In this document: positions 7,446 to 40,852 of the stretch, one piece after another
Layout: every line of letters begins with the position of its first letter
How positions within the stretch are numbered: position 1 is the first letter of the stretch
Source: a virus
Strand: one strand, 5' to 3'
DNA length: 40,852 bases
Virus record (IMG/VR): IMGVR_UViG_3300007363_000006
Span: 1 to 40,852 of that record
Position numbers and translations under genes: made by a program
Notes under the pieces: generated by a model
Database searches by the model: none
Told to the model about the DNA's origin: nothing
The model's input: only the letters and a program-made list of their open reading frames with translations

Positions 7446-7643
7446 ATGAAAAACAAAATTTTTGTAAAATACTATGAAGAAAAACTCGGCACACTGAAGC
7501 AAGCGTCATATTTTTTTCGCTACAGCAAAAGTTCAATCTGCCAATGGTTAAGCGGCAAGACGCTTCCAGGGCCGCGTGCTATTCGTTTGATCGCAAAGAA
7601 AACACAGAACTCAGTTCCCCCTGAAACTTGGTATCGCAAATGA
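7446..7643 (+). CDS. small HTH (Cro/YdaS-like) protein, 65 aa
   Basis: AAAAGGAG precedes the ATG. The protein reads MKNKIFVKYYEEKLGTLKQASYFF, then RYSKSSICQWLSGKTLPGPRAI, then RLIAKKTQN, which fits a helix-turn-helix of the Cro/YdaS type: a helix with KQAS, a recognition helix around SKSSICQWLSG and a third helix after the P-G-P-R-A turn. It is probably a DNA-binding regulator. Only 57 bases separate it from the divergent primase start, so it could control both genes. It is the only repressor-like protein I see. Its stop overlaps the next start as ATGA. Confidence 0.7.
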   Translation: MKNKIFVKYYEEKLGTLKQASYFFRYSKSSICQWLSGKTLPGPRAIRLIAKKTQNSVPPETWYRK

Positions 7644-8335
7644 AAATCAACAACACATCAACCATTCATTTCAAACCGTCATATATTTGTATCTATGGGC
7701 CAAGTGGAATCGGAAAAACGTCGCTCGTTAAATCACTTCCTCATGAGTCTGTACTCATCCTCGATGCAGAATCAGGAATCGCATCACTCCGCGATACGAA
7801 GATTGATAACATTTCTTTATCAAAGGATGATAGCGATGTTCTTATTCCTGAAGACAAACGATACGACAGACTCCTATCGTTCATGCAATTCATTCAAACG
7901 CCGGAAGCAAAAAAGAAATATAAGTATATCTTTATCGACTCGCTCACAGAGATCGCTCAGAACATTCAAAAAACAATGAATCAAAAGTTCACAGGGTTTC
8001 AAGCATGGGGTGAGTACACAAAAGCGATGCTTGATTTGTTTAAATTTTTTCGTGACGTTGGGCACTACACTGTAATCTTCACTGCTCTTGAAGGACGCAT
8101 CGAAGATGACACAGGTGCATCGTTTAGCTACCCAGATGTGGGCGGTAAGAAAGCGAAAGAATATCTATTGCCTCAGTTCGATGAAGTGTTTCGCATGATC
8201 GTCGACGCTGAAAGAAATAGATTCTTTGTAACCAAGACAACGGCTAAGACACAAGCCAAGGATCGAAGCGGAAAGCTCGAAGAACTTGAGCAACCGAATC
8301 TTATGGCAGTGCTTACCAAAATGAAGGGAGAATAA
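7640..8335 (+). CDS. Sak4-like RecA-fold ATPase (AAA_24 family), 231 aa
   Basis: This is a P-loop ATPase of the phage AAA_24/Sak4 type, with Walker A GPSGIGKT (20-27), an acidic strand VLILDAESG after it and Walker B YIFIDS (D100). Later segments (FTALEGRIEDDTG; GKKAKEYLLPQFDEVFRM) are typical of this family. Sak4 proteins act in single-strand annealing or strand exchange with a partner SSB-like protein; the following DUF669 gene is the usual neighbour. The ATG at 7640 overlaps the upstream stop. A second ATP site is absent, as expected for the family. Confidence 0.85.
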   Translation: MKINNTSTIHFKPSYICIYGPSGIGKTSLVKSLPHESVLILDAESGIASLRDTKIDNISLSKDDSDVLIPEDKRYDRLLSFMQFIQTPEAKKKYKYIFIDSLTEIAQNIQKTMNQKFTGFQAWGEYTKAMLDLFKFFRDVGHYTVIFTALEGRIEDDTGASFSYPDVGGKKAKEYLLPQFDEVFRMIVDAERNRFFVTKTTAKTQAKDRSGKLEELEQPNLMAVLTKMKGE

Positions 8336-34805: not shown

Positions 34806-36917
34806 CTAGAGTGTTTCTGTTGAGGGTGGAATAACTTCGGCTTGGAGTCCTTGCGCAGTAGGCTGACTATTAGCAGCCACTTCAGGCGAAGCCTGTCCAA
34901 GCATCGCAATAGCACTTTCTGGCATTGTTTCCATTTGTCTCTTAAATGTTCCTTGATCTTGAAGCTTTTCAATGAGCCAGTTGAGAGCATCATACGGTAC
35001 ACGCGCTCTGCGCGTTCTCTCAGGATTGACAGGATCTTGAATGAAGAAGTCCACACCAACCATCGCTCCACCATCAGGAATAAACCCAGATTGCGCACGA
35101 AGTGCAGCATCTCGTTGAGAACTTACAATATCAAGGTGCGCTGCGATATAGTCCTGATACATCTGTTGCATTTCAGGGGCCATGAATTGAAAGTCTGCTT
35201 GATTCATTCGCATGGTAGCCTTGTTGACAAGAAAGTCATGAGGCTGTGATTCAGTTACAATCGGCATCATCCCGCGATCAAGAGAAAGTAAATCGTTTGT
35301 TGCCATTGTTTCATTCATCGTTAAATCAGAAAATAAATCATCAACATTGGCGTAAGGAAGGCCCTTAATAAGCTTACCAATCATATTCTGATCCAAACTT
35401 GAACCAACATACTGTAAAGCGTGTTGAATAGTAAGAGTACGACCAAGCTTGGTTTCAACATCTTCTGATTGAGCTTCAATCACAATCTCAAGAGACTGAT
35501 CGTTTGCACTCTTAAATTCAGGAATGTTGACCATCTCACTTCGACCAACAGAAAATACAACCATATCATCTGGAATGTAGTATTTCGCCATTCTCAAATA
35601 TGTCATGCAAACGCGTTTCAAGAATCCTTCAAACGGCTTGATGTAACGTAAAAATTTCTTCTTCTGAGATGCAGCCCTAAAAAGCAACGTGTGCGGATCA
35701 AGATTGGCTTCAACATCTTCTTCTTCAATGTCAGCCAAATCATACATCTCACTTACAGTGCTCTGTGCATAACCAACATATTGATCTCCTGATCTACCAG
35801 GAAGGACTGTGGGAGCTGGGCCAGAGACAGTAACAGCTCGAATTCCAGGAAGTGTAGCTCCAGCAGAAACCTTAGCTCCATTCTGCAAAATAAGCTTATC
35901 ATCGCCCAGCGTGACTTGCGTTTCGGCAATCTTACTAATAGCCCTGTTGACCTCAAGCTGAGAATGTCTAAGAGGTTCAACAGCACTAATGCCACGACAC
36001 TTAGTCTGAATGTACTCATATCGTTCGCAAACAATCGGGAAAATTCCTTCAGGAAGCTCTCCTTCATCTAAGATAACTCCGGCTGAATGAATGTAGTAAT
36101 AGCCTTTCGGATATTCAGGGCTAGGCTTAAAGTACCACTCCTTAACAAGCACTTCATCTTTCTTGTTTCGTCTATACCCTTGGTTAATATCGAAAACCAT
36201 AAATGGTTGCTCATAAGAACCGCCACCAATTTGATCTGCTTTATCAGGGAATAGTTGCTTTAAGTTATCAGTCTTAACTGACTTGCGAAGACAATAATAA
36301 GTGGAATCTTTTAACGCTTGAGCCGATGGATCTCGAAGCACGTTGAAAGCAAAAATCTCTTCAAACTTAAGCTGCCCTTGATGAACTGGCTTAGTTTCAT
36401 CAGCCACAGGCTGGCCCATTTCATCAACTGCGGGCTGACCATCTGGAGTCATCAATGGCTCATGGCCAACAATCGGGCCAGCAGTTTCATCCCAATAAAT
36501 CTTAGCCCACACTTCACCAATGCCAACAAAATCATCAGACCATTGACGAACTAGATTGGAAAAATCATTTCTCTCTTTGCCATCAACCCAAATAGCTTGA
36601 TGTAATTCTGCTGATTTCTGATCTTGAAGTTCTTGCCTATGTTTCGGGCCTACAGTGACAGATGGAGATGTGGCAACAATCATGTTGCTGATACGACGAA
36701 TGATGCGACCAAGGTGGTTCTTCGTTAGCCTAATTCGCACGTTTTCTTGCAAGTCAATCGACTGCCTAATGCGCTGAAACTGAGATCCGCGCTTGTAGTA
36801 GTGATCTCCAGAAATCATGAGGAGTCCACTCCTCATTTTAGCGAAATCCTGCTTATCGCACTCTTCTGATTCGGTGTAGAGTCTATCTAAATCCTTGGCT
36901 GAGTTAATCTTAATCAC
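34806..36917 (-). CDS. portal protein, 703 aa
   Basis: This large portal resembles P22/SU10-type portals: an N-terminal helical wing (CDKQDFAKMRSGLLMISGDHYYKRGSQFQRI), NHLGRIIRRISNMIVATSPSVTVGP, a central region with YKVKEWYFKP-like strands (KDEVLVKEWYFKPSPEYPKGYYYIHS), CRGISAVEPLRHSQLEVNRAISKIAETQ (stem/crown helix) and a Met/Gln-rich C-terminus. It forms the dodecameric DNA gate at one vertex. The GTG start overlaps the stop of the 90-residue gene upstream. Length is at the large end, as in P22 (725). Confidence 0.85.
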   Translation of the reverse strand: MIKINSAKDLDRLYTESEECDKQDFAKMRSGLLMISGDHYYKRGSQFQRIRQSIDLQENVRIRLTKNHLGRIIRRISNMIVATSPSVTVGPKHRQELQDQKSAELHQAIWVDGKERNDFSNLVRQWSDDFVGIGEVWAKIYWDETAGPIVGHEPLMTPDGQPAVDEMGQPVADETKPVHQGQLKFEEIFAFNVLRDPSAQALKDSTYYCLRKSVKTDNLKQLFPDKADQIGGGSYEQPFMVFDINQGYRRNKKDEVLVKEWYFKPSPEYPKGYYYIHSAGVILDEGELPEGIFPIVCERYEYIQTKCRGISAVEPLRHSQLEVNRAISKIAETQVTLGDDKLILQNGAKVSAGATLPGIRAVTVSGPAPTVLPGRSGDQYVGYAQSTVSEMYDLADIEEEDVEANLDPHTLLFRAASQKKKFLRYIKPFEGFLKRVCMTYLRMAKYYIPDDMVVFSVGRSEMVNIPEFKSANDQSLEIVIEAQSEDVETKLGRTLTIQHALQYVGSSLDQNMIGKLIKGLPYANVDDLFSDLTMNETMATNDLLSLDRGMMPIVTESQPHDFLVNKATMRMNQADFQFMAPEMQQMYQDYIAAHLDIVSSQRDAALRAQSGFIPDGGAMVGVDFFIQDPVNPERTRRARVPYDALNWLIEKLQDQGTFKRQMETMPESAIAMLGQASPEVAANSQPTAQGLQAEVIPPSTETL

Positions 36918-37186
36918 TCTTCATCCCCCATTGCATTGTTTTCAAATGCAAGAGGATCAGAGATAAGAAGTTCATCCTTAATCATTTCTTCGACCATCAT
37001 TTCATCTTCCTTAGAAACAGGTCTATAGATGATTTCTTGTTGCTGAATCGTAGGCTCTTGCACCACGTCCATTGTATCCTTTTTTTCAGGAAACGTAATC
37101 TCAAGAGAGTCGAGCTTGAATCTCAAAACCCCTTCGGTAGAGCAAGTCTTAATAACCTGAACTAATCCCCTAGCATCCCATTCCAA
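36914..37186 (-). CDS. hypothetical acidic protein, 90 aa, between terminase and portal
   Basis: The apparent start is a TTG at 37186 within the end of the TerL gene, preceded by GGGAGAG; no ATG occurs before Met39, so the start is uncertain. The product is acidic (EDEMMVEEMIKDELLISDP; FENNAMGDEE) with one short beta section near the start. No family is recognised. Overlaps with both neighbours (25 and 4 bp) keep it in the packaging operon. Confidence 0.55.
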   Translation of the reverse strand: MEWDARGLVQVIKTCSTEGVLRFKLDSLEITFPEKKDTMDVVQEPTIQQQEIIYRPVSKEDEMMVEEMIKDELLISDPLAFENNAMGDEE

Positions 37187-38778
37187 AATTCAAACTCTCC
37201 CTCTATTTCGTCTAATGAATCATTATTTTTCCACATTTTCAACGCGTCCCTGTTAGTTCTTGCCTCAAATGCAGAATAATATGTCGCGGCTTTCTTGGCT
37301 TGGTCTGCAGAGACAATCAAATAATCACCGTTATTTCCTGATCTCATATTAAAAGGTATCTTAATGCACGCATATCGTAGCGCATCAATCAAATCATCGG
37401 GGCAATATGCAGATGACGTAGACTTGACAGCGTTAAAAGATAAACTCTCAAACTCTTGAGCGATCTTATACCCCTCCAAGAACTGATCCGGCACACCATC
37501 CTTCTCAGATAACTCACTTGGAACATAGAATTTCAAGATTCCTGTCTTTAAAAGTGAAGAAACAATCGAATTTCCAGCATCTCTTGACTTATCTGCACGC
37601 AAAAACGGCAATCCACGACGTGCAGCCAAAGTACCTAAATCTGTCGCAGAAAAGTCATAATATGTAGCAGTAATGTCGTTTACCACCGTATTTTTCATCT
37701 CAACCCACTTATCAATGACATCTTCTGCTGTTGTTACGCGCTTATCACCACGCCACATCCTAATGGCACGCGCTTGAGTGTAGTCTGGGTTGACCGCAAC
37801 AAACACAATCGTTGATGGATGGCCCTTATCACCACCACTTCCAAAATCTATCCCAGAATATACTTCCCAGTTGCGCGGAATGTGATGATAACCAGCCAAA
37901 TGCTTGTCTCGATCAAATTGAGGAAAGCGTAAACCGTCATCCTTCACAAACTTTCCATAAATACGACGCTGTACTTCAGCATTAGTCGTACACTGATCTA
38001 TACGTTCCTTAATTCTCTCCTTACTCCACATCGTAGTTGTACCATCTGTGTACTTCATACAGTCAAAAAGAGAAATCTGCCTGACCCAAGCGTTAGGCCA
38101 TACAGTGCGATCCTCAACAATCTTCTTCCAAAAGAGTTGCCCAGTTGTAGCTGTGAAGCCAAAAATCATATACCCTTGAGTTGCCGACACACGACTCTGA
38201 AGTTCTGGCACAAGTGCCTCATCAATTTCTTCATCACACGCAACAACAGCACAAGATCCAGCCTGAAGAAGCTCAGCTCCCTGTGCATACGTCTTAAAAT
38301 AAATCGTAACTCCCTTGTGAATAAAATGAAGACTAGGCGGGAGCTTGTCTCTCTTACTATATTCCCAACCATATTCAGGATCATCTTGAGGAGGCAGAAT
38401 CGGACGCCACTTATCGTGGAATTCCGAAATAGACATATCCCTTGTCGGATACAAGTACCACATCGTCGTTGGCTTGCGATTATTCTTATGCAACTCAGGC
38501 CAGAGTTCTGGCCAAAGCTCCTCGTTTGTAGCCCACTCAATCACCTTACGGGCCATCGTAAGACTCTTGCCAATCTGGTTAGCAGCAGTCACACACTGAA
38601 CACGCGCTCGACAATCAAACCATTCCTTCTGCCACGGAAAAAACTTCATTCCATAACGATGCGGAAGTCGCTCACGCAGCGCAATCTCACGCTCAAGAGC
38701 CTCAAGCTTAGCAAGCTTCAGCTTCACAATCTCCTCATGAAGCCTACGCTTTTCTAATTCGTCATCAATGCTGCTCAA
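37162..38778 (-). CDS. terminase large subunit, 538 aa
   Basis: The ATPase domain has Walker A AANQIGKS (65-72, K71), Walker B AVVACDEE (D182, E183) and a coupling-like GFTATTG (207-213). The RNase-H-like nuclease carries D311 in SGIDFGSG, D375 in ATYYDFS and D461/D462/D466 in PDDLIDALRYA. The motor pumps DNA into the prohead and cuts it. Length is typical. The start is TTG 38778 (GAGGAG ten bases upstream); a GTG at 38724 with a closer GAGGAG would remove 18 residues. Confidence 0.9.
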   Translation of the reverse strand: MSSIDDELEKRRLHEEIVKLKLAKLEALEREIALRERLPHRYGMKFFPWQKEWFDCRARVQCVTAANQIGKSLTMARKVIEWATNEELWPELWPELHKNNRKPTTMWYLYPTRDMSISEFHDKWRPILPPQDDPEYGWEYSKRDKLPPSLHFIHKGVTIYFKTYAQGAELLQAGSCAVVACDEEIDEALVPELQSRVSATQGYMIFGFTATTGQLFWKKIVEDRTVWPNAWVRQISLFDCMKYTDGTTTMWSKERIKERIDQCTTNAEVQRRIYGKFVKDDGLRFPQFDRDKHLAGYHHIPRNWEVYSGIDFGSGGDKGHPSTIVFVAVNPDYTQARAIRMWRGDKRVTTAEDVIDKWVEMKNTVVNDITATYYDFSATDLGTLAARRGLPFLRADKSRDAGNSIVSSLLKTGILKFYVPSELSEKDGVPDQFLEGYKIAQEFESLSFNAVKSTSSAYCPDDLIDALRYACIKIPFNMRSGNNGDYLIVSADQAKKAATYYSAFEARTNRDALKMWKNNDSLDEIEGEFEFWNGMLGD

Positions 38779-39433
38779 GACGCAGCCGCTCCTCTAACTC
38801 TTTCAACTTCAAATCAATCTCAGATGACTTCGCGTGAAGCCCAAGTGCCTTTACATCTTTCGATGTTAAGTTCACAGACATCTGCTTAATTTCCTGCACA
38901 GTCCTCTGCGTCGGCATACCGTTCTTACGAATATCAAGAAACGCCACTGCTTTCATAATAAGCTCAATTGCCTTATGGTCTATTCTGCCATCATCTGATT
39001 GCATCGGCAGATCAATGATCTGCTGAAGACGACGCAAGCCCCGAGCAAGAGCCTCGTCAACAAGCGAATCGTAGTGCGTTGGCGGTATTAAAACCCAAGC
39101 AAGCGAGTTCGGCATTGTCAGATGCTCGCGGAGCAAAATAGAAGGACTCCCTTTACCAATAAACCCTTGAATACCTCGAAACGTCATATTGGTTAAACTG
39201 TTCTGAGCTGCATCGTACTCCTGCCAAAAAGCAGTTCTTACTTGATTCAAAAATGGTGTAGGACGCACAATCGGCTCAAGGTGCGTTTCATCCATCGTAA
39301 GAAGCGATAATGGCATATCATCAAATGTCTCACGGCACTCGCGAGGCATGATGTTGTAAAGTGACCTCTTATCACTCTTGCTGTATGGGCCGCCCTCATG
39401 AAATAGTCTTAGTTCTTTTTCATCCAATTCCAT
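38765..39433 (-). CDS. putative terminase small subunit, 222 aa
   Basis: The gene lies directly before TerL, overlapping it by 14 bp, the usual place for the DNA-recognition subunit. It is helical with a middle segment IIDLPMQSDDGRIDHKAIELIMKAVAFLDIRK and a C-terminal coiled coil (SSEIDLKLKELEERLRLEQ) that could drive ring assembly. I do not see a clear N-terminal HTH, so the call is based on synteny. It overlaps the kinase gene by 25 bp. Confidence 0.6.
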   Translation of the reverse strand: MELDEKELRLFHEGGPYSKSDKRSLYNIMPRECRETFDDMPLSLLTMDETHLEPIVRPTPFLNQVRTAFWQEYDAAQNSLTNMTFRGIQGFIGKGSPSILLREHLTMPNSLAWVLIPPTHYDSLVDEALARGLRRLQQIIDLPMQSDDGRIDHKAIELIMKAVAFLDIRKNGMPTQRTVQEIKQMSVNLTSKDVKALGLHAKSSEIDLKLKELEERLRLEQH

Positions 39434-39966
39434 ATCTTAACTGCAACATCCTCTAGGTGAGCGTTGGTTGTATCATAAATAAGATGAAATCGCGTTTCTT
39501 GATCCAGAGTTGTTTCAGATTCATGCGAATCGTTGGCCCACTTCTCAGCACGATTACGCCTAGCCTCTTTTGATGCGTTAAGCCTGACTCGACACACTTC
39601 AAGAGATATGGGCATAAAAAGCTCGTTGTGAAATCGCACGTCATCTACAATGACAATCGTATCCTTAATATCAAGAGCTAAATCAATACGGGGACGCATG
39701 ATGTTGACCCAAAAGTCCTCTGACATCGCCTTCCTACCCCATTGCGTTCCAAGAAGCTGCAAAAGAACTCGATCTGGCTTTTCAGGCGTGCGAACTCCGT
39801 ACTCTTGCAGCTTATGATAGATGGCATGGTGCAAGTCGTACAAAGGATCTGCAAACTTCATCAATACTGGAATGTATTTCTCATCCTTGGCTAAGTGAGC
39901 AACTCGACGAGCTACTGTTGACTTACCAGCTCCTTGCGGGCCACTGATAAATAAAACTCTCTTCAT
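39409..39966 (-). CDS. deoxynucleoside monophosphate kinase, 185 aa
   Basis: This is a P-loop kinase with Walker A GPQGAGKST (9-17), a KFADPLYDL substrate segment, a LLGTQWGR loop (typical of phage dNMP kinases of the T4 gp1 kind), a DDVRF strand and an Arg-rich lid (RLNASKEARRNRAEKW). It should convert dNMPs to dNDPs for phage DNA synthesis, with nucleotides from host DNA breakdown. It overlaps the phosphoesterase stop (ATGA). The placement upstream of the terminase pair is unusual for a metabolic gene. Confidence 0.85.
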   Translation of the reverse strand: MKRVLFISGPQGAGKSTVARRVAHLAKDEKYIPVLMKFADPLYDLHHAIYHKLQEYGVRTPEKPDRVLLQLLGTQWGRKAMSEDFWVNIMRPRIDLALDIKDTIVIVDDVRFHNELFMPISLEVCRVRLNASKEARRNRAEKWANDSHESETTLDQETRFHLIYDTTNAHLEDVAVKIWNWMKKN

Positions 39967-40556
39967 AGCTCGATAGTAATGTCGTTTACCCCGCGTGGCA
40001 AGATGACCCCACGCACTTCAGAATGTTTAAACTCAATAATCTTCTCAGGATGCGAATGACCCATAATAACAATCCTAAGAGTCGGAAGCTCTCGCTTTCG
40101 CTCATCAATCCACTCAAGCAAGTTCTTATTGGGACGCACTTGGAAATATCTTCTTAAGCCATCAATTGCTGGTGAAATCACATTTCTCTTAAGCCATCCT
40201 GCACCCTGCTTACCTGACCTGTAAGTTGTCGCACGCTCAATACCCCACATTGGAATATCACCGTGAGTGAGTAACACTGACTCCCAAAGCAAAAACTCAT
40301 CGTGCGTCTTCAAAGCATTGCGCTCGTGATTACCCATAATGTACTGCCCTCCATTGCGTTTCACATTATCTGAAAGAAGCATAGTCGCTTGCCTTGCTCG
40401 TTGCAAGTCAGCGGGGTGACAGTTGGCAATGTCAACAACATCACCAAGCAAATACACTGGCCAAGGGGAAGATTGAATCGCAAACGAAATATCATCAAGC
40501 GTGTGCGTTGGATTAACGCCATAAAGATGAATGTCGTTGATGATTCTTAGTTTCAT
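39963..40556 (-). CDS. calcineurin-like metallophosphoesterase, 197 aa
   Basis: All five metal-binding boxes are present: NDIHL (D8, H10), LLGDVVD (D39), MGNHE (N76, H77), LTHGD (H98) and MGHSH (H167, H169). The enzyme could remove phosphates from nucleotides, proteins or DNA ends. The small single-domain size resembles phage phosphoesterases near packaging or nucleotide genes. The ATG lies three bases after the Gly-X gene stop, so it probably depends on translation of that repeat gene, and it overlaps the kinase as ATGA. Confidence 0.85.
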   Translation of the reverse strand: MKLRIINDIHLYGVNPTHTLDDISFAIQSSPWPVYLLGDVVDIANCHPADLQRARQATMLLSDNVKRNGGQYIMGNHERNALKTHDEFLLWESVLLTHGDIPMWGIERATTYRSGKQGAGWLKRNVISPAIDGLRRYFQVRPNKNLLEWIDERKRELPTLRIVIMGHSHPEKIIEFKHSEVRGVILPRGVNDITIEL

Positions 40557-40559
40557 ATT

Positions 40560-40787
40560 TCACCCATCTCCAGTTCCATCGCAATCGCCATAGCCATCGC
40601 CATCGCCATAGCCATAGCCAGAGCTATTGCCAGAGCCATAGCCAGAGCCATAGCCGGAGCCAGAGCCATAGCCATCGCCATAGCCGGAGCCAGAGCCATA
40701 GCCAGAGCCATAGCCATAGCCAGAGCTATTGCCAGAGCCATCGCCATTGCCAGAGCCATCGCCAGAGCCAAAATTTACGCTTTCCAC
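40560..40787 (-). CDS. Gly-X dipeptide-repeat protein 2, 75 aa
   Basis: This is a paralogue of the 89-residue protein at 50-319. It begins MESVNFGSGDGSG and ends DCDGTGDG, against MESVDFG and GGGTGNG in the partner, so both ends are conserved while the repeat interior differs. The GTG start lies five bases after the partner's TAA once the circle is closed, which favours reinitiation. The bases around the start also preserve a TWKA-stop frame like the VWKV-stop that ends the DUF6948-type gene, so the duplication included that gene's last codons. The metallophosphoesterase follows after three bases. Function is unknown. Confidence 0.65.
   Translation of the reverse strand: MESVNFGSGDGSGNGDGSGNSSGYGYGSGYGSGSGYGDGYGSGSGYGSGYGSGNSSGYGYGDGDGYGDCDGTGDG
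40575..40770. repeat. hexanucleotide low-complexity array (right)
   Basis: This array has the same 6-base units as the array at 66-305, here coding the second Gly-X protein on the minus strand. Unit order differs between the two arrays, but the sequences just before and just after them are alike. That indicates duplication of a whole module followed by independent expansion or shuffling. Confidence 0.9.
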
Positions 40788-40852
40788 GTTAATTACCCAT
40801 TCCCAGTTCCACCGCCATCGTCAGAGCCATAGCCAGAGCCATCGCCAGAGCC
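40744..40852. repeat. 109-bp direct terminal repeat, right copy
   Basis: This is the identical partner of bases 1-109. It contains the GTG start (40787-40785) of the second Gly-X gene and the last codons of the first. The break falls inside a hexamer-repeat array, the kind of place where an assembler would stop. Confidence 0.95.

Follow-up and report, generated by a model that had tools for sequence, protein, structure and literature searches.

Proteins in which every second residue is glycine and the residues between are Tyr, Ser, or Asp (here called strict Gly-X) were found here almost exclusively in phage DNA, and nearly always beside genes of the DUF6948 family. The two genes form a cassette that recurs in many unrelated phages. 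The start of the Gly-X gene overlaps the stop of the DUF6948 gene, the Gly-X frame is under selection at the protein level, the array is reshuffled in 6-bp units without a reverse transcriptase, and in most relatives the cassette lies close to a gene for an annealing protein. We tentatively read the cassette as a nucleic-acid-binding barrel coupled to a hypervariable, sticky, and disordered partner, a function that is quite possible given the predicted fold and the neighborhood.

The starting point was a viral record of 40,852 nucleotides (IMGVR_UViG_3300007363_000006), analyzed over its whole length and referred to below as the window. Its first 109 bp (1-109) are identical to its last (40744-40852), which closes the sequence to a circle of 40,743 bp, be it a circular genome or a circular assembly. 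Since it encodes a P22-like portal, an internal virion protein, a Prim-Pol primase, a Sak4-type annealing protein (7628-8335, plus strand; phrog_124, E 2e-44; PF13479), a YqaJ nuclease, and a ResIII helicase, the genome is that of a tailed phage, probably a podovirus as judged by gene content. A DNA search of positions 36000-40000 against INPHARED returned no match. The minus strand carries, in this order, two small genes, the DUF6948 gene (307-642; 111 aa), Gly-X gene 1 (50-319; 89 aa), Gly-X gene 2 (40560-40787; 75 aa), a calcineurin-like phosphoesterase (39963-40556; PF00149, E 8e-6), a deoxynucleoside monophosphate kinase (39409-39966; phrog_139, E 3e-27), terL, and the portal gene. The DUF6948 gene is the first gene of the cassette, and its 3' end overlaps the GTG start of Gly-X gene 1 by 13 nt (307-319).

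Pairing of Gly-X genes with DUF6948

The upstream gene in the window is a clear member of Pfam family PF22253 (DUF6948; E 1.2e-30, 105.9 bits vs a cut-off of 27), for which the Pfam entry gives neither a function nor a partner. Homology to this gene alone retrieved 44 loci from IMG/VR, and all 44 have a Gly-X frame at the DUF6948 gene (43 were clear at first pass, and L029 has a short Gly-X frame). The position of Gly-X gene 1 is thus conserved, and the Gly-X frame of the window is not a product of chance. The earlier note on this DNA had suggested looking for such frames behind DUF6948 genes in related phages, and none of the relatives found by homology lacks one. A Gly-X frame also lies beside the DUF6948 gene in 15 of 15 DUF6948 phage records examined, covering Pectobacterium, Dickeya, Iodobacter phiPLPE, Vibrio, Chlorobiaceae, gut, and spring phages; ct8d5349 has a more irregular array, and in ctRVW222 the array precedes the DUF6948 gene. 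In the latter (L054:1429-2077) the upstream Gly-X frame overlaps the annotated DUF6948 start in another frame, and this annotated start may be wrong.

The pairing was also approached from the other side by a blind scan of IMG/VR DNA with a degenerate GYGDGYGSGYG pattern, which matched at least 120 stretches. Among the matches listed, 99 arrays were assessable, and 98 were left after one (L146) had been dropped as an opposite-strand artefact. DUF6948 lies within 900 bp upstream in 89 of these 98 listed arrays and is absent there in nine. Four of the nine (L064, L068, L123, and L138) follow a gene from a divergent branch (ITINGVEY...VVVVDRGWIFAGDV...FKWESIGFA), which can be aligned to DUF6948 with an hhalign E value of 5e-7; two (L083 and L149) carry DUF6948 at another place in the locus, and L101, L103, and L160 have no recognizable partner. 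Bacterial and archaeal genomes totaling 257 Gb contained only 10 matches to the same pattern, 8 of them with DUF6948 directly upstream. Among sampled bacterial genomes, DUF6948 itself turned up in 1 of 392 and in 2 of 395, and a Gly-X gene accompanied it in every case. The pairing in the blind scan and the scarcity in cellular genomes together indicate that strict Gly-X proteins belong essentially to phages and are all but inseparable from DUF6948.

The junction of the two genes is conserved as well. A typical Gly-X start, (A/G)TG-GAA-A, overlaps the DUF6948 stop; the overlap is exactly 13 nt, as in the window, in 62 of 128 distinct loci, and the start falls between -40 and +5 nt of the stop in 118 of them. 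This arrangement suggests that translation of the two genes is coupled.

Gly-X proteins gave no match in a PHROGs search, and their Pfam matches to 'TrAA12' and 'KRTAP' were rejected as compositional and below cut-off. In the literature searched, no paper names DUF6948 or PF22253 or describes the pair; searches with Gly-X peptide strings returned a wool keratin paper as the sole match, and a 2024 paper on the Ymer genus does not mention glycine.

Tandem copies and what was duplicated

Across the joined ends of the window, the two Gly-X genes stand in tandem with a spacer of 5 nt (TAA-TTAAC-GTG). The tandem arrangement holds even without the joined ends, because an independent contig (IMGVR_UViG_3300006863_000549, L001) carries both genes side by side, with identical arrays and flanks of 98-100% identity. 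The gene order proposed in the earlier note, i.e., DUF6948, Gly-X 1, five bases, and Gly-X 2, is thereby established, and its description of the gene ends was accurate too: both genes start with GTG-GAA-AGY-GTA (M-E-S-V) and end with G-T-G-N/D-G. The arrays have TRF scores of 201-261. Gene 1 encodes 41 Gly, 18 Ser, 11 Tyr, and 8 Asp; both products have a pI of 4.05 and contain neither Lys nor Arg.

That note had further proposed that the duplicated unit included the tail of the DUF6948 gene. A gene-sized copy is borne out by the first 27 nt of both genes, which match (GTGGAAAGYGTARAYTTTGGCTCTGGC), as do their last codons. The inclusion of the DUF6948 tail is not, as the 60 bp 5' of the two starts are dissimilar (local score 8 vs a shuffled mean of 11.8). 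The TWKA-stop frame that had been taken as a remnant of DUF6948 belongs instead to the normal 13-nt start overlap seen in other loci: TGGAAAGYGTAR is present in both Gly-X starts and reads W-K-A/V-stop in another frame. At gene 1 this frame is the true end of DUF6948, and before gene 2 it is a by-product of the copied start. Because the upstream 60 bp are dissimilar and the W-K-stop frame is inherent to the start, the copied unit in the window was the Gly-X gene only. Duplication of the whole module (DUF6948 and Gly-X) was ruled out for the window by the lack of similarity upstream of the two starts.

Both modes of duplication occur in other loci. Gly-X genes alone are present five times in L059, up to six times per run in L105, five to six times in L138, and four times in L083, and tandem copies of the whole module exist in L007, L042, and L089. 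In L007 (3331-4949) three tandem DUF6948 copies have Gly-X genes between them, the third copy being cut by the contig end.

Turnover, neighborhood, and selection of the array

The Ymer group of Pectobacterium phages provides a natural set in which the order of a low-complexity chain varies and the flanks stay the same, which comes near to a ready-made experiment. The flanks adjoining the array are mostly 90-100% identical (lower downstream in Sabo and Setonix), and the arrays encode 53 to 89 residues with differing X order. Ymer and Amona do not differ at all in the 400 bp upstream and the 600 bp downstream of the array, yet their arrays differ; these share a 40-nt prefix and a 49-nt suffix and have a replaced middle, a pattern that points to block exchange. 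Array length differences between near relatives are divisible by 6 bp in every comparison. Divergence in repeat steps, as the earlier note had assumed, is thus what the relatives display, and no indel ignoring the 3- or 6-base period was seen. Many viral contigs (L002, L005, L014, L019, L023, L031, and L039) end inside or just after arrays, probably because the repeat interrupts short-read assembly; array lengths taken from metagenomic data may not be reliable.

A local hypervariable array with NNY codons resembles diversity-generating retroelements. The cassette differs from them in that X is limited to Tyr, Ser, and Asp and length changes in 6-bp steps, and as no reverse transcriptase (RVT_1) was found in 15 genomes, the window included, it is not such an element. 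The X order is nearly random in the unbiased subset of arrays. A rule for Tyr spacing was considered and rejected, as the avoidance of YY in the full set (z -10.5) stems mostly from the scan pattern and is weak in the unbiased set (z -2.2).

Such turnover bears on the possibility that Gly-X is a variable decoy or counter-defence factor which binds a host defence or regulatory protein, with DUF6948 as its partner and conflict driving the reshuffling. The extreme difference between arrays with 100% identical flanks would fit this explanation, as would a small gene pair in the early region and an acidic composition free of Lys and Arg. However, near-random X order combined with conserved composition is more in keeping with a bulk physical property than with specific recognition, and we consider a decoy unlikely.

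A RecT, ERF, or Sak4 annealing gene is present in 22 of 31 cassette phages. Once near-duplicates were removed, 16 of 20 phages had the cassette no more than 3 kb from the annealing gene and in the same orientation (3.0 expected; binomial p 2e-10). The result is alike for the three families and speaks for an early role connected with nucleic acids. Among the four exceptions is the window, whose Sak4-like gene lies 7 kb away on the opposite strand.

A structural role of Gly-X, as a virion decoration, fiber linker, or adhesive, might be suggested by the fact that Gly-rich repeats are common among fibrous proteins and that the cassette of the window sits on a strand running on to terL, portal, and tail genes. 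This is rather improbable, since the cassette of most relatives lies in the recombination region and was within 3 kb of a terminase in 0 of 17 cases.

Whether the array acts as protein or as DNA was addressed by grouping 208 distinct arrays by their dominant glycine codon. The X residues comprise about 39% Tyr, 32% Ser, and 24% Asp in GGC-dominant arrays, 45, 34, and 16% in GGG-dominant arrays, 40, 25, and 24% in GGT-dominant arrays, and 28, 37, and 32% in GGA-dominant arrays (three arrays). The other two frames shift with the codon, from Ala/Thr/Pro to Gly/Thr/Pro, Val/Thr/Pro, or Met/Asp/Leu. Because X stays Tyr, Ser, or Asp under any glycine codon while the other frames change, the Gly-X frame is selected as protein. 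Codon choice within the window arrays is narrow: GGC accounts for 65 of 73 Gly codons (89%) vs 22% in the phage's other genes, Tyr is encoded by TAT in 21 of 21 cases, and the serine codons TCA and TCG do not occur. Since this choice is unlike the phage's own, some constraint at the nucleic acid level or concerted evolution also acts; the narrow set would fit a 6-bp unit spread by recombination, well-translated codons, or avoidance of Shine-Dalgarno-like AGG/GGG.

A role of the array as a GC-rich attachment, recombination, or packaging site has a published precedent. Table 3 and the accompanying text of Comeau et al. 2012 (PMC3391216) give a DNA repeat, (KMGCCG)35, at 46,046-46,255 of phiPLPE as a possible novel attachment site; what the paper says there reads the array as a DNA repeat and does not describe a coding frame, the pairing, or a wider family. 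This repeat is of the same type as the window arrays and falls within an unannotated, open Gly-X frame directly after the phiPLPE DUF6948 gene (L050:1173-1409; about 46,045-46,281 of the record). The distinctive codon choice and the many contigs that end inside arrays could also be counted in favor of a DNA role. Nevertheless, such contig ends are expected of short-read assembly, and many other arrays are internal to contigs. Furthermore, the conserved 13-nt overlap joins the frame to the upstream gene, and arrays rich in GGT, GGG, or GGA differ as DNA repeats while keeping Tyr, Ser, and Asp in the Gly frame only; an attachment or packaging repeat conserved regardless of frame was rejected for this reason. 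A role as DNA is hence very unlikely, and a coding explanation replaces the printed attachment-site suggestion for phiPLPE. Neutral slippage of a selfish simple repeat in a dispensable gene tail, to which the free variation in array length, order, and Gly-X copy number might be attributed, is the least credible explanation of all in view of the near-universal pairing with DUF6948 across diverse phages, an X composition held under different codons, the conserved start overlap, and the lack of any frame loss.

Predicted structures and a possible division of labor

The AF2 model of DUF6948 is a small beta barrel with two helices (mean pLDDT 94.5). In a Foldseek search, the best 50 PDB neighbors listed were all Sm/Lsm-fold chains or complexes, with probabilities of 0.99-1.00 and E values of 1.6e-3 to 2.4e-2; the best match (E 1.6e-3) has a TM score of 0.53 normalized to the query and 0.62 to the target. 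Among the viral models in BFVD, DUF6948 proteins are followed by others, two of which are named Sm-like. Sequence comparison was less telling: hhalign against approximate Sm sequences placed the Sm1 region in register but without significance (P 0.049, probability 1%), and a PDB sequence search with the DUF6948 profile gave no match. DUF6948 is thus predicted to be an Sm/Lsm-like barrel by structure, a link for which sequence profiles give no proof of homology.

The Gly-X chain was modeled within one natural fusion, where Gly-X residues 13-92 have a pLDDT below 50 and the other domain about 93. Gly-X is probably disordered, although AF2 on low-complexity sequence is no proof of this. Two kinds of fused form were noted. 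In L043 (4270-5010), L110, L125, L136, L154, L163, L168, L173, L174, and L187, Gly-X is followed by a conserved C-terminal domain of ~150 aa with the motif YxIDG..T.I.SV.GN.AKG ... FAHGDTL ... LTGSCE.GR, which has no Pfam, PHROG, or PDB fold match and may help to explain what Gly-X does. A second C-terminal domain of ~115 aa (AYWRSD..G.P.NGG ... ALHAT..P.KWKGER.W.VAL.GEV ... DDK.GAL.REII.E) follows Gly-X in L071, L077, L126, L134, L143, L148, L161, L166, and L172, often with a (L/V)IRGxxP or LRGxxP motif preceding the array.

The reading of the cassette as a barrel with a disordered partner narrows the earlier statement that the function of such proteins in a phage is unknown. The DUF6948 gene would deliver a small Sm/Lsm-like barrel protein, and the Gly-X gene, started within the last codons of the DUF6948 gene, a short, acidic, disordered chain rich in Tyr, Ser, and Asp with Gly at every second residue. 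In early infection, the most likely target of the barrel would be a nucleic acid (RNA or single-stranded DNA) or a host nucleic-acid protein; the role of the barrel may alternatively be phrased as Rho/Hfq-like regulation. The Gly-X chain would be its flexible, Tyr-sticky partner and would promote weak, multivalent association, as a condensate or a tether. If only the composition of the chain counts and not its order, arrays may be reordered without restriction in steps of 6 bp, and entire Gly-X genes may occasionally be copied. A plausible agent of the reshuffling is the annealing protein that the phage itself encodes, and extra Gly-X copies, as in the window, may raise the dose or length of the chain. 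We infer nucleic-acid binding, the physical partnership of the two proteins, condensation, and annealing-driven reshuffling. In a more specific version, the cassette would be a split ribonucleoprotein- or SSB-like condensate present in many unrelated phages, in which a separate Gly-(Tyr/Ser/Asp) chain evolving by composition only concentrates the Sm-fold binder on phage mRNA or on phage DNA undergoing replication or recombination; we regard this as improbable in such detail. In any case, the orphan DUF6948 family can now be assigned a constant partner, a fold predicted to be Sm-like, and an annealing-gene neighborhood, which together make its function testable.

SSB proteins bear Gly-rich, disordered, acidic tails, and the prion-like domains of the [G/S]Y[G/S] type in FUS are rich in Tyr and Gly. 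The Gly-X chains are similar to both in being Gly-rich, acidic, and predicted to be disordered with Tyr as stickers, and are unlike them in their strict Gly alternation, the rapid change in residue order, and the lack of fusion to the barrel. The DUF6948 protein, in turn, is predicted to share the fold of Sm, Lsm, and Hfq proteins (e.g., archaeal SmAP and Lsm rings, and also Rof), but it differs from them in that the sequence similarity is not significant and its disordered partner is encoded by a separate gene. By analogy, the cassette may resemble an Sm/Hfq or SSB core with its Gly-rich disordered tail in the division of labor, here distributed over two genes.
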